DNA of 21,058 nucleotides, taken from positions 1-21,058 of the IMG/VR virus record IMGVR_UViG_3300040751_002495; one strand, given 5' to 3'. Positions 3,148 to 17,817 of this stretch are shown here, piece by piece (the first letter of the stretch is position 1; the number at the start of each line of letters is the position of its first letter). The position numbers were made by a program, and so were the translations under genes. This DNA is from a virus. The notes beneath the pieces were generated by a model. That model saw only the letters and a program-made list of their open reading frames with translations. It was not told the origin of the DNA and did no database searches.

Positions 3148-3467
3148 ATCCCCGGTGGAAACATCATTCTCATATTATCACCACTTGCAAGAATGCAGGT
3201 GACACCAACTTGCTTATTTACTACAATGAATGACCAAGTGGTTGATCCTGCATTAATCCACAAAGAGTGGAACAGATCATGTCCTTGACCATTTTGACTT
3301 GGTGCCATCATAACAATTTCTTCCGAATACTTAGTTTTGATGCCTTCAAGAATGTGATCAGTGTCACCACAAAACATGGGTAATTGTTTTTCATCAAACG
3401 GAATGCCATTGTGTTCAGCAAATGATGCTGTCGTCCATAACAACATGAGTAATGCGAGTGTTCTCAT
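3144..3467 (-). CDS. small secreted two-cysteine protein
   Basis: 107 residues from ATG 3467, which has AGAGGCAAC upstream; a longer frame to 3539 would run into the tmRNA terminator and is rejected. The N-terminus MRTLALLMLLWTTASFA is a clear signal peptide with an A-x-A-like cut after SFA. The mature part holds two cysteines (M-F-C-G-D and V-T-C-I-L-A-S-G-D), which could form one disulfide in the periplasm, and an M-M-A-P-S-x-N-G motif. I know of similar secreted phage/bacterial hypothetical proteins but no function. It stands alone downstream of the tmRNA and converges with the late operon. Confidence 0.75.
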   Translation of the reverse strand: MRTLALLMLLWTTASFAEHNGIPFDEKQLPMFCGDTDHILEGIKTKYSEEIVMMAPSQNGQGHDLFHSLWINAGSTTWSFIVVNKQVGVTCILASGDNMRMMFPPGI

Positions 3468-3490
3468 GTGAGTTGCCTCTAGAAATGAAA

Positions 3491-3518
3491 GGGGTGTTTC
3501 TGTTGCCAAGTACACCCC
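3491..3518 (-). other. leader hairpin upstream of the secreted-protein gene
   Basis: Minus strand GGGGTGT (3512-3518) pairs with ACACCCC (3491-3497) across a 14-base loop, followed by TTTC, 23 bases before the ATG at 3467. It could be a weak second terminator behind the tmRNA or a 5' leader structure that shapes expression of the secreted protein. Confidence 0.4.
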
Positions 3519-3519
3519 C

Positions 3520-3548
3520 AAAAAACTCCGCAACCTCAATCAGGCTGC
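3520..3548 (-). terminator. hairpin plus T6 ending the tmRNA (also tmRNA P5-like helix)
   Basis: GCAGCC (3543-3548) pairs with GGTTGC (3530-3535) around a seven-base loop that contains the tag stop codon TGA, followed after GGAG by six T residues (3520-3525). This is a factor-independent terminator shape, and in tmRNA terms the helix right after the reading frame corresponds to P5. Confidence 0.6.
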
Positions 3549-3768
3549 AAGTGCAAATGTATTATCGTTTGCGTTTACTTTAAGTTGCTTCTTCGACCGG
3601 GAACCCCCAATCCTATCGTCTTCTGCCTTGACGGATTCTCCACTTTCCTACTTGCATCGATGTCGAATCTATATCTGCCCCATCATAAACACACCTTGAT
3701 GCACTTATGGTGGAGCAGGAGGGATTCGCACCCTCGTCCATCAACCTTTCGGTCTGCTTCACTGAATC
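3520..3768 (-). ncRNA. ssrA: circularly permuted (two-piece) tmRNA
   Basis: The tRNA-like half comes first. Acceptor piece 3768-3708: a GAGGG-TGCGAAT-CCCTC T-arm, then CTGCTCC-A-CCA ending at 3708, very close to the E. coli tmRNA end (GGACGCGGGTTCAACTCCCG... CCACCA). A 26-base intervening segment (3707-3682) follows. The coding piece starts at 3681 with GGGGCAG, which pairs fully (one G-U) with CTGCTCC, then the tmRNA hallmark TAGATTCGAC. CATCGA (3657-3662) pairs with TTGATG (3739-3744), the expected P2 joining the pieces. After AGTAAAC, the resume codon GCA at 3570-3572 opens the frame A-N-D-N-T-F-A-L-A-A-stop (3540-3572). Such RNAs rescue stalled ribosomes with SmpB and mark the products for ClpXP. 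The T-loop has TG where TT is usual. The 5' end is set by the late promoter and is approximate. The order acceptor-then-coding is that of alphaproteobacterial split tmRNAs. Confidence 0.93.
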
Positions 3769-3773
3769 AATAT

Positions 3774-3781
3774 TATTTATA
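3774..3781 (-). promoter_or_regulatory. T4-type late promoter for the tmRNA
   Basis: TATAAATA on the minus strand, with five bases before a G at 3768 that would be the start point. This is the spacing of T4 late promoters, and it places the RNA start just before the acceptor piece. It lies between the stop of the 59-aa gene (3789) and the tmRNA. Confidence 0.65.
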
Positions 3782-3788
3782 ACACATG

Positions 3789-3968
3789 TTAGACGTATTT
3801 GCAAGACATGTATTCTATCCACATTACAGCATCATACTCACTTTCAAACCATTGAATATGAGATTCCATTGTAATTATATGCCACATAAATGCTTGAACT
3901 TGACTGTCATACTTTGATACTTTGCATGCCCATTCACCAATTAAGACGGGATCGTATGACTCAAACAT
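3789..3968 (-). CDS. 59-aa acidic, aromatic-rich protein
   Basis: ATG at 3966-3968 with AGGAGAG directly upstream; it overlaps the 3' end of the exonuclease gene by 28 bases in another frame. The product starts MFESYDPVLIGEWACKVSKY and is rich in aromatic, M and acidic residues, with two cysteines (positions 15 and 56) and no membrane segment. It repeats an M-W/Q-W-F/W-I-E spacing of tryptophans. Family unknown. The stop lies eight bases upstream of the tmRNA late promoter, so it is the last protein gene of the leftward train before the RNA. Confidence 0.7.
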   Translation of the reverse strand: MFESYDPVLIGEWACKVSKYDSQVQAFMWHIITMESHIQWFESEYDAVMWIEYMSCKYV

Positions 3969-4914: not shown

Positions 4915-5449
4915 AACTAAACCACTCCGGTATATTTCTATTTGTCCACTTGGCAAACTTTGCCTTCTCTTTTATATAGTAGTTTTGATATGCATTGATT
5001 GCGTCAGACATCTTACAGTCGTCTGGCATTGCTTGTGGAGGGTCTGTGAAAGAACCGTCAGGAATATTCATTGGGGTATGGGATAGTGCAGATGCAAGTT
5101 TGGTATACGTTGCATGACTTTTTCCGTAACGATGTGTATACTCAAGACACAGTTGAAACCACATAGAATATAACCAACGATAGTTGCCACTGGACTGACG
5201 TGCCCAAATAGCAGAAGGGTGATTGATATGGGATGCCTTGTAGTACAAGTCTTCGTAATGCTTGTGTGGCATCAACCATCGTTTGATACGACGATTGTTT
5301 GCAGTACGATCTTCATATACTGTACCATCGAGCACCCGGTGAGCAGTCGACATTAACTGTGCATACTCGATAATCATTTTGACTACGTGCTTATCACAAT
5401 GATCTTGTGCGCACCTAAGAGGATTCTTGTCTAGATAAAATACGTTCAT
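4901..5449 (-). CDS. conserved T4-like phage protein, 182 aa
   Basis: The N-terminus MNVFYLDKNPLRCAQDHCDK is followed by H-V-V-K-M-I-I-E-Y-A-Q-L-M-S-T-A-H-R; mid-protein motifs are H-P-S-A-I-W-A-R-Q-S-S-G-N-Y-R-W-L near residue 80 and E-Y-T-H-R-Y-G-K-x-H. This pattern is one I know as a conserved hypothetical protein of marine T4-like phages. The layout (C-x-x-x-H-C-D-K-H near the N-terminus, then H-P, then N-Y-x-W-L) distantly recalls pyrimidine-dimer glycosylases such as DenV (start, H-x-x-x-E-x-R-E-L, G-H-V), but the key residues do not line up well and I do not assign it. No membrane segment; cytoplasmic. The start overlaps the upstream stop (ATGA). Confidence 0.75.
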   Translation of the reverse strand: MNVFYLDKNPLRCAQDHCDKHVVKMIIEYAQLMSTAHRVLDGTVYEDRTANNRRIKRWLMPHKHYEDLYYKASHINHPSAIWARQSSGNYRWLYSMWFQLCLEYTHRYGKSHATYTKLASALSHTPMNIPDGSFTDPPQAMPDDCKMSDAINAYQNYYIKEKAKFAKWTNRNIPEWFSYANV

Positions 5450-14725: not shown

Positions 14726-14919
14726 TAGAAACTCTCTGTTAATCCACTATCACTGTTATATTGTTTTTTTGTCAAAGACCATGTGCCATTGCCGTTATCT
14801 ATCCAGTTTAACACATCACCTTCCTTTGCATCAAGATGGTCAAGAACTGCTTGTGGTAGAGGAAGAATCAAATTTTCTCCATCCTCTATTATTTCAACAG
14901 TAAACTTATTTTGCTCCAC
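14725..14919 (-). CDS. AbrB/MazE-like small protein, GTG start
   Basis: GTG at 14917-14919 with GGAG seven bases upstream. The product (MEQNKFTVEIIEDGENLILP start) has the swapped-hairpin barrel pattern of AbrB/SpoVT-type proteins: I-L-P-L-P-Q-A-V-L-D-H-L-D-A-K-E-G-D-V-L-N-W, followed by N-G-T-W-S-L-T. Relatives are antitoxins or DNA-binding regulators; no toxin partner is seen next to it, and phage forms are common as single genes. It overlaps the peroxiredoxin gene end and the glycosyltransferase start. Confidence 0.65.
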   Translation of the reverse strand: MEQNKFTVEIIEDGENLILPLPQAVLDHLDAKEGDVLNWIDNGNGTWSLTKKQYNSDSGLTESF

Positions 14920-15433
14920 GCAAATACTCCATCACAGTCTGGGGTGAAGACACTCCATATGGATCTGGATCTTCTTCTGTTGCATCTGGTTCAATGAACA
15001 TTTTTTCAATTGTACCATCATTCACAACCATCGCATACCGACGAGACCGTGTTCCAAAACCAACCGCAGACATGTCAATGTCCATGCCCATTGTTTTTGT
15101 AAATTCTGCATTACCATCCGGAATGAACTTTAAATTTTTGACTTGCTGATCAATCATCCATTTGCGCATTACGAATGTGTCGTTTACGGAAATAACATAT
15201 ACTTCGTCGATTCCTAGATCGGTTCGGATAGTCCAATAATTGTCTTCGTATTCTGGAACTTGATAAGTAGAGCATGTGGGAGTAAACGCACCGGGTAGGG
15301 AAAACACCACCACTCTCCGTTTTGAAAAAATTTCTTCTGTTGTTACGTCTATCCATTTAAATGGATTATCCCCTCCGATAGATTCGTCACGAACTCTCAC
15401 CTTGAAAGTTACGTCTGGTACTCTTTTCATCAT
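14906..15433 (-). CDS. Prx5-type peroxiredoxin
   Basis: 175 residues. The start MMKRVPDVTFKVRVRDESIG is followed by the thioredoxin-fold peroxiredoxin core: R-R-V-V-V-F-S-L-P-G-A-F-T-P-T-C-S-T-Y-Q-V-P-E-Y-E (P-x-x-x-T-x-x-C with the peroxidatic Cys, residue 54), E-V-Y-V-I-S-V-N-D-T-F-V-M-R-K-W and F-G-T-R-S-R-R-Y-A-M-V-V-N-D-G (conserved Arg). Only this one cysteine is seen, so it is a one-cysteine or glutaredoxin-dependent type. It reduces hydroperoxides, protecting the infected cell from oxidative stress. Coupled by ATGA to the upstream 46-aa gene; M1 versus M2 as start is open. Confidence 0.88.
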   Translation of the reverse strand: MMKRVPDVTFKVRVRDESIGGDNPFKWIDVTTEEIFSKRRVVVFSLPGAFTPTCSTYQVPEYEDNYWTIRTDLGIDEVYVISVNDTFVMRKWMIDQQVKNLKFIPDGNAEFTKTMGMDIDMSAVGFGTRSRRYAMVVNDGTIEKMFIEPDATEEDPDPYGVSSPQTVMEYLRGAK

Positions 15434-16298: not shown

Positions 16299-17045
16299 TT
16301 ATTTCCTAATTAATTTAATCATATAACCAGTCAGATCCGGAAACCCATGACAAACTGTCCATGGTTTTTCGTGATGCTCTTTATGATAACCACCATCACC
16401 ACACAAAATCCAACTGAGGATCGGACTATTAATTGTATCACCCTTTTCGTTGTGTGTAAAGGTGTTCACTGATGATGATATGTTCAGAGATATGAAAACA
16501 GGAAACGAGTATAATGCCCAAATTAACATGGGTTCTACAATCAAAATTAAACAGATCCAACTCACAATTATATGCACGTAATATGTATCCGAAAACACAA
16601 GACCTTTTTGTTCTTTTAATTTTTCGTATCTTTCGGTGGGCACCAATTTCCAATCCCAATCAAACCACGATCTAAAATATGCACGAATCTTCCCTAAGTG
16701 TTTCGGGGAATGTGGGTCTACCTTAGAATCTGAATATTCATGATGAATATCGTGTATATTTGACCATTTCAAAATACTTGAATTAGTAATAATCGTAGAT
16801 ACAAAAACAAGAACATAGTGATTAAAAGAATTGACTTTATAACTTTGATGAGAAAAATATCTATGCAGTCCTACTAGTAATCCAAACACTGCTATAAGAT
16901 ATCCAATAGCAAAACTTAAAAAGATTTGCTCGGTAGATAAAAAATAAAATGAAAACGGAATACTAATAAGAACCAAAATTTGCAAAAGTCCACTTTGACT
17001 CTTTCCTGATTCCTGTGTGAACGATCCTTTAAAAGGAATATGCAT
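16299..17045 (-). CDS. fatty-acid desaturase
   Basis: 248 residues from ATG 17045, preferred to an in-frame ATG at 17099 because AGGAGAT lies just before it. Membrane enzyme with the three histidine boxes of delta-9/acyl-type desaturases: H-R-Y-F-S-H (box 1), H-D-I-H-H-E-Y-S-D (box 2) and Y-H-K-E-H-H-E-K-P (box 3, with G-G-x-x-H). Hydrophobic segments occur before box 1 and between boxes 2 and 3. The boxes bind a di-iron centre that inserts a double bond into acyl chains with oxygen. Phage copies could adjust membrane fluidity or lipids of the infected cell. It is last in the tRNA-RNA-desaturase transcript order. Confidence 0.88.
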   Translation of the reverse strand: MHIPFKGSFTQESGKSQSGLLQILVLISIPFSFYFLSTEQIFLSFAIGYLIAVFGLLVGLHRYFSHQSYKVNSFNHYVLVFVSTIITNSSILKWSNIHDIHHEYSDSKVDPHSPKHLGKIRAYFRSWFDWDWKLVPTERYEKLKEQKGLVFSDTYYVHIIVSWICLILIVEPMLIWALYSFPVFISLNISSSVNTFTHNEKGDTINSPILSWILCGDGGYHKEHHEKPWTVCHGFPDLTGYMIKLIRK

Positions 17046-17071
17046 ATAGAGATCTCCTAAAAATAAAATGC

Positions 17072-17225
17072 GGAACGGGTGGATTAGGGTAACCACCAAG
17101 GGGGTACGATCAGATGTACCTTTCTACATAGACCCCCAACAACTCGCAACCCCGCTTAGGGTATGGACGCTATCCCTTTGAGTTTACCTTACCCCCCATC
17201 TGCGAGAGGCATTCAGTCACGTTCC
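17072..17225 (-). ncRNA. unrecognised multi-branched structured RNA candidate
   Basis: About 154 bases between tRNA-Cys and the desaturase with many complementary segments. On the minus strand: GGAACG (17220-17225) pairs with CGTTCC (17072-17077) and closes the whole region; CTCGCA (17201-17206) pairs with TGCGAG (17143-17148); inside that, GGGTA (17190-17194) pairs with TACCC (17159-17163); GGGGGT (17132-17137) pairs with ACCCCC (17100-17105) and encloses ATGTA-GAAAGG-TACAT; GGTGG and CCACC (17078-17097) form a hairpin. No reading frame fits. It may be a processed phage RNA or a leader of the desaturase gene. Not tRNA, tmRNA, RNase P or a riboswitch that I recognise. Confidence 0.5.
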
Positions 17226-17228
17226 TAT

Positions 17229-17245
17229 CGGTGTTGCAATCACCG
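17229..17245 (-). other. perfect hairpin after tRNA-Cys
   Basis: CGGTG (minus strand) and CACCG pair around a seven-base loop ATTGCAA, six bases after the CCA end of tRNA-Cys. It may protect or direct processing of the tRNA 3' end. It has the look of an anticodon arm with UGC, but no other tRNA parts surround it. Confidence 0.5.
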
Positions 17246-17250
17246 AACTC

Positions 17251-17325
17251 TGGAGTGGATGATAGGAATCGAACCTACTTCAAACTGATTTGCAGTCAGT
17301 CACCTAACCATTCAGTCACATCCAC
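17251..17325 (-). tRNA. tRNA-Cys(GCA)
   Basis: 75 bases including encoded CCA. Acceptor GTGGATG pairs with CATCCAC; anticodon arm ACTGA-CTGCAAA-TCAGT gives anticodon GCA; T arm GTAGG-TTCGATT-CCTAT; the discriminator base is T (U73), the known cysteine identity base. The third of three tRNA genes in order of transcription. Confidence 0.92.
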
Positions 17326-17375: not shown

Positions 17376-17451
17376 TGGCTGGGGTAGTTGGGATCGAACC
17401 AACGACATATGGATTAACAGTCCACCGTTCTACCTACTGAACTATACCCCA
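17376..17451 (-). tRNA. tRNA-Asn(GTT)
   Basis: 76 bases with encoded CCA. Acceptor TGGGGTA pairs with TACCCCA, discriminator G; anticodon arm GTGGA-CTGTTAA-TCCAT gives GTT; T arm GTTGG-TTCGATC-CCAAC. All conserved bases present; the D-arm TAGTTCAGTAGGTAGAA is standard. Confidence 0.93.
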
Positions 17452-17458
17452 AAAATTT

Positions 17459-17535
17459 TGGTGTCCCCTGCAGGAGTCGAACCTGCGACCTACTGCTTAG
17501 AAGGCAGTTGTTCTATCCAACTGAACTAAGGAGAC
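17459..17535 (-). tRNA. tRNA-Arg(TCT)
   Basis: 77 bases with encoded CCA. Acceptor GTCTCCT pairs with AGGGGAC (one G-T pair), discriminator A; anticodon loop in CTGCCTTCTAAGCAG gives TCT, reading AGA and AGG; T arm GCAGG-TTCGACT-CCTGC. First tRNA in the transcript. Its codons are often rare in hosts but frequent in AT-rich phages. Confidence 0.93.
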
Positions 17536-17598
17536 GTTCTACTGCGGTGATGATGTCATCTCTAAAAAGAACACCTATCACCAAACCTACTATAAAAT

Positions 17599-17817
17599 TT
17601 AACACACTATCACTTCATTGTCAAGCTTTTCTGCCATCAAATCAATCCATCGATCTTCTTCATCAATCTCTGCCTCAATCGCATTGATCAGTCGTTGGAT
17701 GCGCAATGCTTTACCATAAGCACTGATACCAACATTGGTCTGTGCGATCTCAGAAGAATCCAAAAACTGAACCGCATCTTTCAGCGTGTTCAGAATCTCT
17801 TGATTATCAACTCTCAT
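17599..17817 (-). CDS. 72-aa helical protein
   Basis: ATG 17817 overlaps the preceding stop (TAATG). MRVDNQEILNTLKDAVQFLD is followed by a helical amphipathic stretch (A-L-R-I-Q-R-L-I-N-A-I-E-A-E-I-D-E-E-D-R-W-I-D-L-M-A-E-K-L) and ends in the cysteine of E-V-I-V-C. No known domain. It is the last protein gene before the tRNA cluster in transcription order. Soluble, acidic. Confidence 0.65.
   Translation of the reverse strand: MRVDNQEILNTLKDAVQFLDSSEIAQTNVGISAYGKALRIQRLINAIEAEIDEEDRWIDLMAEKLDNEVIVC

Follow-up and report, generated by a model that had tools for sequence, protein, structure and literature searches.

A divergent manA RNA in a phage tRNA cluster: possibly a self-standing, partly tRNA-like RNA rather than a desaturase leader

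The segment between a tRNA-Cys gene and a desaturase-like gene in the viral record IMGVR_UViG_3300040751_002495 encodes what sequence evidence identifies as a real structured RNA, a divergent member of the manA class of marine phages and hence of a known class. The RNA has the family fold and lies in a tRNA cluster, and many of its relatives are autonomous or embedded among tRNA genes. To judge by these relatives, the RNA may stand on its own and be partly tRNA-like, and a switch for the desaturase is the less likely reading. The stretch of DNA analyzed (the window) comprises positions 1 to 21,058 of the record (21,058 nt).

A cmscan search of the 21-kb window against 4,227 Rfam families aligned the RNA (~179 nt) end to end with manA RNA (RF01745; model positions 1 to 192 of 192; E = 4.1e-10). 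The score of 49.4 bits is ~6 bits short of the gathering score (55.2 bits), which is a curation threshold and not a biological feature, and which clear relatives also fail to reach. RF01745 was the sole match across the element among all families, and none of 14 control genomes matched this model. The RNA carries the conserved manA core (UGACUGAAU...UAAGGU) and the closing helix (Table 1). An earlier note on the window, made from the letters alone, had proposed a branched structured RNA that might be a new phage RNA class, and had suggested an Rfam scan. The scan returned the full-length match below the gathering score described here; novelty is thus contradicted, and the branched structure is borne out by the family match and by covariation (see below). 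The note had listed its helices as read on the strand shown; it is the opposite, minus strand that carries the tRNA genes, the desaturase gene, and the RF01745 match. The site that it gave (17072-17225) is right as far as it goes, but the true element is larger and includes an additional 5' hairpin.

Table 1. Features of the manA-family RNA and its surroundings in the window
Feature	Position	Strand	Evidence or remark
Fatty-acid/acyl-CoA desaturase-like gene	16299..17045	-	phmmer matches to acyl-CoA desaturases 4ymk/4zyo, ~1e-8
manA-family RNA, whole element	17068..17246	-	cmscan, RF01745
Closing helix, 3' strand CGUUCC	17072..17077	-	Pairs with 17220-17225
T-arm-like hairpin GGUGG-UUACCCUAAU-CCACC	17078..17097	-	Adjoins closing helix; covariation in 16 relatives
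P6 hairpin GGGGGU/ACCCCC	17100..17137	-	Sequence and fold
P3 domain, AACUC/GAGUU closing two small hairpins (17165-17176, 17150-17161)	17141..17184	-	Compensations in L023
Conserved core UAAGGU	17186..17191	-	UAAGG invariant in alignments A1 and A2
P2 hairpin CCUCUC/GGGGGG	17192..17209	-	Family P2; L023 differs in loop only
Conserved core UGACUGAAU	17211..17219	-	Kept in aligned relatives
Closing (acceptor-like) helix, 5' strand GGAACG	17220..17225	-	Partner 17072-17077; covariation in 16 relatives
5' hairpin UCGGUG/CACCGA	17228..17246	-	Two of six pairs altered on both sides in L023 (UCGCUC/GAGCGA), pairing intact
tRNA-Cys(GCA)	17251..17325	-	ARAGORN and Rfam; 4 nt upstream of RNA
tRNA-Asn(GUU)	17376..17451	-	ARAGORN and Rfam
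tRNA-Arg(UCU)	17459..17535	-	ARAGORN and Rfam
Promoter-like TTGACA-17-TAAATT ahead of tRNA cluster	17596..17624	-	10/12 matches plus TG; weak evidence (5.3 promoter-like sites expected by chance from shuffling the region)

Two of the helices in the earlier note, GGAACG/CGTTCC and GGGGGT/ACCCCC (17100-17105/17132-17137), are present and belong to the family fold. The letters of a third, CTCGCA/TGCGAG (17143-17148/17201-17206), are also present, but this helix clashes with the family P3 helix, and only five of its six pairs survive in L023, the nearest relative. With RF01745, which likewise comes from marine T4-like phages, the window RNA shares the core (UGACUGAAU...UAAGG), the 5' hairpin, the closing helix, P2, P3, P6, and the 3' arm, whereas its P3 hairpins are shorter and its 6-bp closing helix has another sequence. 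No claim is made that the P6 and T-like loops form a kissing interaction: 447 of 2,000 shuffles were as good over a wide span (not significant), and a narrower span picked afterwards gave suggestive values (5/3,000 and 17/3,000 shuffles). Nor is conservation claimed for the U after the closing helix ("U8"), since the search patterns contained that U.

A fold energy better than that of shuffled sequence, which the earlier note had named as a check, was found on neither strand (plus strand, z = -0.95, 35 of 200 shuffles as good; minus strand, z = -1.06, 31 of 200). The claim of a structured RNA would thus fail on fold energy alone, and it is homology and covariation that carry it. A pattern of two core blocks matched 22 viral contigs, 17 of which have an independent RF01745 match, and 21 further RF01745 matches above the cut-off were found in isolated cyanophages and marine single-cell viruses. 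Pelagibacter phage HTVC008M gave a weak full-length match (25.9 bits) and has the same closing helix and arm in its sequence. A strict cyanophage core pattern had no matches, and comparison of the site DNA with isolated phages returned only the tRNA-Cys gene or chance similarity. Several pattern matches in bacterial genomes are probably due to chance, but those in L152 and L159 look real; a candidate in phage Melnitz (12.3 bits) was dropped, as its sequence has no manA core.

The covariation that the earlier note had asked about is found in 16 diverse RNAs, including that of the window. When 3' strands were swapped between sequences, none of 5,000 permutations equaled the observed pairing, either in the closing helix (87 of 96 cells paired; permuted mean, 49; maximum, 69) or in the adjoining T-arm-like hairpin (80 of 80; permuted mean, 59.5; maximum, 73), although complementarity was used to find the arms of divergent copies, which makes these counts partly a matter of construction. 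When the 3' region of each sequence was shuffled, a test that allows for this arm search, the result was as good in 2 to 11 of 300 trials for most divergent copies (window, 10 of 300) and in 29 to 61 of 300 for other copies; L033 and L040 had no support. Compensatory changes are also seen in L023 (IMGVR_UViG_3300017909_000379), where a close copy is represented by its first 119 nt, of which 102 match the window. Within these 119 nt there are four two-sided compensations, two in the 5' hairpin and one in each P3 hairpin (the register of the second P3 hairpin was shifted by one base by eye); the other differences include one A-U to G-U change in the P3 closing helix and loop changes. Compensatory changes have preserved the 5' hairpin, so a leader that is simply thrown away is improbable, which tells against the processed stable RNA proposed below. 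The RNA in L023 begins 5 nt past the stop codon of a 591-amino-acid open frame ending in ECISCQG, with no tRNA nearby.

The earlier note had placed the RNA in a tRNA transcript, and this location is upheld: the RNA follows tRNA-Cys on the tRNA strand, and position and strand point to co-transcription. Its place after tRNA-Cys and ahead of a desaturase is unlike that of catalogued manA RNAs. The match of the desaturase gene to the NCBIfam DesA family is far under the cut-off, no homologues of this gene were found among the viral contigs, and 26 nt separate the RNA 3' end from its likely ATG (17045). A redoxin/peroxiredoxin-like gene lies nearby (14906-15433, minus strand; PF08534, E = 5e-24). 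The source phage is, judged by its sequence, T4-like; its RNase H shows 54.6% identity with the RNase H of Methylophilales phage Melnitz and roughly 50 to 52% with cyanophage proteins. The window also contains a permuted (two-piece) tmRNA gene (3449-3800, minus strand; RF04321, 105.7 bits; ARAGORN tag ANDNTFALAA), separate and distinct from the manA RNA. Permuted tmRNAs are known from Melnitz-like phages (PMC9004378).

Several relatives of the window RNA are flanked by tRNA genes. The gene order is tRNA-Thr-manA-tRNA-Asn in L093 and L096, tmRNA-tRNA-Ala-manA-tRNA-Asn in L095, and tRNA-Arg-manA-tRNA-Gly in L292 (spacers of 0 to 1 nt by Rfam coordinates); spacers are 0 to 7 nt across L093, L095, and L292. 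L249 has a copy within a large tRNA cluster, tRNA-Gly directly follows manA in S-SSM7, and tRNA-Ala is downstream in L152. Other copies have their own sigma70-type promoter (at least 10 of 12 matches), which was found in 18 of 35 copies versus 2% of random segments and never where a tRNA lies just upstream of the copy. A terminator hairpin follows the RNA in 5 of 35 copies (background, 2.3%), and two more terminator-ended copies (L037 and L040) were judged by eye. The 5' boundary is constant: the tRNA 3' end is 26 to 31 nt ahead of the core in the window, L093, L095, L249, and L292, and the predicted transcription start of solitary promoter-bearing copies is at the 5' hairpin. Since the tRNA end, the promoter start, and the L023 stop codon all adjoin this hairpin, the same 5' boundary appears in three settings. 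An open reading frame is downstream in 81 of the 116 copies listed; these 81 frames represent 41 unrelated protein families, without the consistent pathway that a metabolite riboswitch would need.

Other features were observed around these copies. The unannotated manA-like RNA of HTVC008M (L163; 5037-5223) precedes the gp32/ssb gene, has a perfect TTGACA-17-TATAAT promoter, and overlaps the annotated frame I899_gp008, which is probably spurious. Small hypothetical proteins annotated over cyanophage manA RNAs (SSSM7_180, PHM1_121, PHM2_011/012, SSSM5_127, and PSSM4_169.1) are probably spurious as well. In L051, L052, L054, L074, and L083, the -35 box TTGACA is within an upstream terminator-like hairpin (e.g., GAGGGTGCTTGACACCCTCTTTTTTT), such that terminator and promoter are packed together. 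Contig L094, which also has a manA-like RNA, carries a type II hammerhead ribozyme match (5296-5358, minus strand; RF02276, 40 bits, above the cut-off).

HTVC008M represents a branch with a variant core. Its core is UGGCUGAAC...UAAGGC, in which the first P2 pair is G-C in place of A-U, and IMG/VR contigs L171-L336 follow the pattern UGGCUGAA(C/U)AAC...UAAGGC. Variant-core patterns matched at least 120 viral contigs plus 46 more, and at least 86 distinct copies have the same architecture. Some of these copies score above the Rfam cut-off (L292, 91.2 bits; L327, 70.7; L299, 66.0; L213, 64.9; L303, 55.4), and many others apparently under it (e.g., L177, L188, L190, and L207). The T-like arm was tallied in 109 listed copies with an unambiguous arm, which were chosen without a loop criterion and of which a few are probably chance matches. 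Among them, 98 have a G-C pair closing the loop, 99 a U as the first loop base, 101 an A at the third loop base from the end, 101 a pyrimidine as the last loop base, and 102 a loop of 11 to 13 nt (10 nt in the window). The hallmarks of a tRNA T-arm are G53-C61, U54, A58, and Y60. The manA arm features resemble these, though in a longer loop.

With the tRNA and the tRNA-like domain of tmRNA, manA RNAs thus share the order of elements, a 5-bp T-like arm directly adjoining the acceptor-like closing helix, the G-C loop-closing pair, a loop with U first and A-N-Y last, and a tRNA-operon position. Against tRNA-likeness, the tRNA covariance model (RF00005) did not match the element, the loop has 10 to 13 nt instead of 7, the anticodon arm is absent, and an encoded CCA is usually absent. 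In 2013, the manA and tRNA models were reported to be weakly linked, a signal judged presumably false yet worth following (PMC3692125). RNA C (species 1 RNA) of T4 is also a small stable RNA from the tRNA region of a T4-like phage, in which a 5' domain is followed by an acceptor-like helix (CGGAACG/CGTTTCG) with an adjoining T-arm, but it has no manA core and has a canonical 7-nt T-loop (UUCGAAU). An RF01745 search of the T4 genome gave no match, and no sequence homology was found; the likeness is one of plan only. The T4 rnaC gene (L160 909-1047, minus strand) ends in a canonical T-arm and weakly matches the tRNA-Sec model (17.5 bits). No role has been assigned to RNA C (PMC3014915; PMC9697503).

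These data bear on how the window RNA should be read. The original description of the RNA class, from 2010, gave it an almost exclusively marine distribution and a place in potential 5' UTRs, and named it a riboswitch candidate of the cis-regulatory type (Weinberg 2010, PMC2864571). Rfam release 14.3 brought a corrected structure (PMC7779021), and the copy in cyanophage S-CREM1 was annotated as cis-regulatory with a putative role (PMC9964418); in the literature searched, no functional study of manA RNA since the 2010 description was found. As in that description and in Rfam, the window RNA could be a cis-regulatory leader or riboswitch for the downstream gene, here the desaturase, as the earlier note had also proposed. 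Many cyanophages do show a promoter, the RNA, and a ribosome-binding site in succession, and in about half of the 81 frame-bearing copies listed the RNA ends 16 to 26 nt before the ATG (median, 21 nt), a leader-like arrangement that argues against an autonomous RNA; terminators, too, can belong to riboswitches. However, the listed copies precede 41 unrelated protein families, tRNA genes are directly 3' of manA in S-SSM7, L093, L095, L152, and L292, the next gene in P-TIM68 is on the opposite strand, the L023 copy follows the 591-amino-acid frame, and the window copy itself would be transcribed behind tRNAs. Control of the desaturase in cis is weakened and not supported by these settings, and we consider it unlikely, although the 26-nt spacing taken by itself would permit some effect in cis.

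A more improbable reading is that of a tRNA-like processing or stability element with no role in trans, one that marks where polycistronic phage transcripts are cut between tRNAs and mRNA. The smallest shape that RNase P takes as a substrate is a T-arm-like hairpin with a closing helix stacked on it; manA RNAs have this shape and sit between RNAs and mRNAs. Yet a cut site would not require the other ~150 nt of conserved structure, among them the UGACUGAAU/UAAGG core, and the cyanophage copies that own a promoter have nothing upstream to be separated from. That the helices arose by chance, without a functional RNA, would agree with the fold energies, but this reading is refuted by the full-length RF01745 match, the strong covariation in the pairing test of 16 relatives, and the L023 compensations, and its probability is close to nil. 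The common boundary in three settings, the membership in tRNA clusters, and the diverse downstream genes together argue that the RNA is made for its own sake. We therefore lean, with modest confidence, toward an autonomous, tRNA-cluster-borne, partly tRNA-like stable RNA that acts in trans and does not control the desaturase in cis.

As such an autonomous RNA, the window RNA would be the last RNA of a tRNA-Arg/Asn/Cys transcript, as position and strand indicate. It would adopt a multi-branched fold in which the 6-bp acceptor-like closing helix is stacked on the 5-bp T-arm-like hairpin. Host tRNA-processing enzymes may cut out and trim a stable RNA of about 175 nt, and this RNA may then work in trans, with its tRNA-like end engaging tRNA-binding proteins or the ribosome of the infected cell.

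For the class as a whole, we tentatively propose, with somewhat less than even confidence, that manA RNAs form a large class found across phages, whose members are stable, autonomous, and tRNA-like. They would be carried in tRNA clusters and act in trans on the translation or tRNA machinery of the host, as functional counterparts of T4 RNA C and not as riboswitches. The size of the variant branch suggests that the manA class is larger than the Rfam model captures, and the settings and T-arm-like end of the copies hint at a plan related to that of T4 RNA C and D. The copies flanked by tRNAs, the copies with their own promoter or terminator, and the T-arm-like end make up an alternative that is testable in culturable cyanophages and pelagiphages. 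What merits pursuit is this class-level case for an autonomous RNA borne in tRNA clusters.
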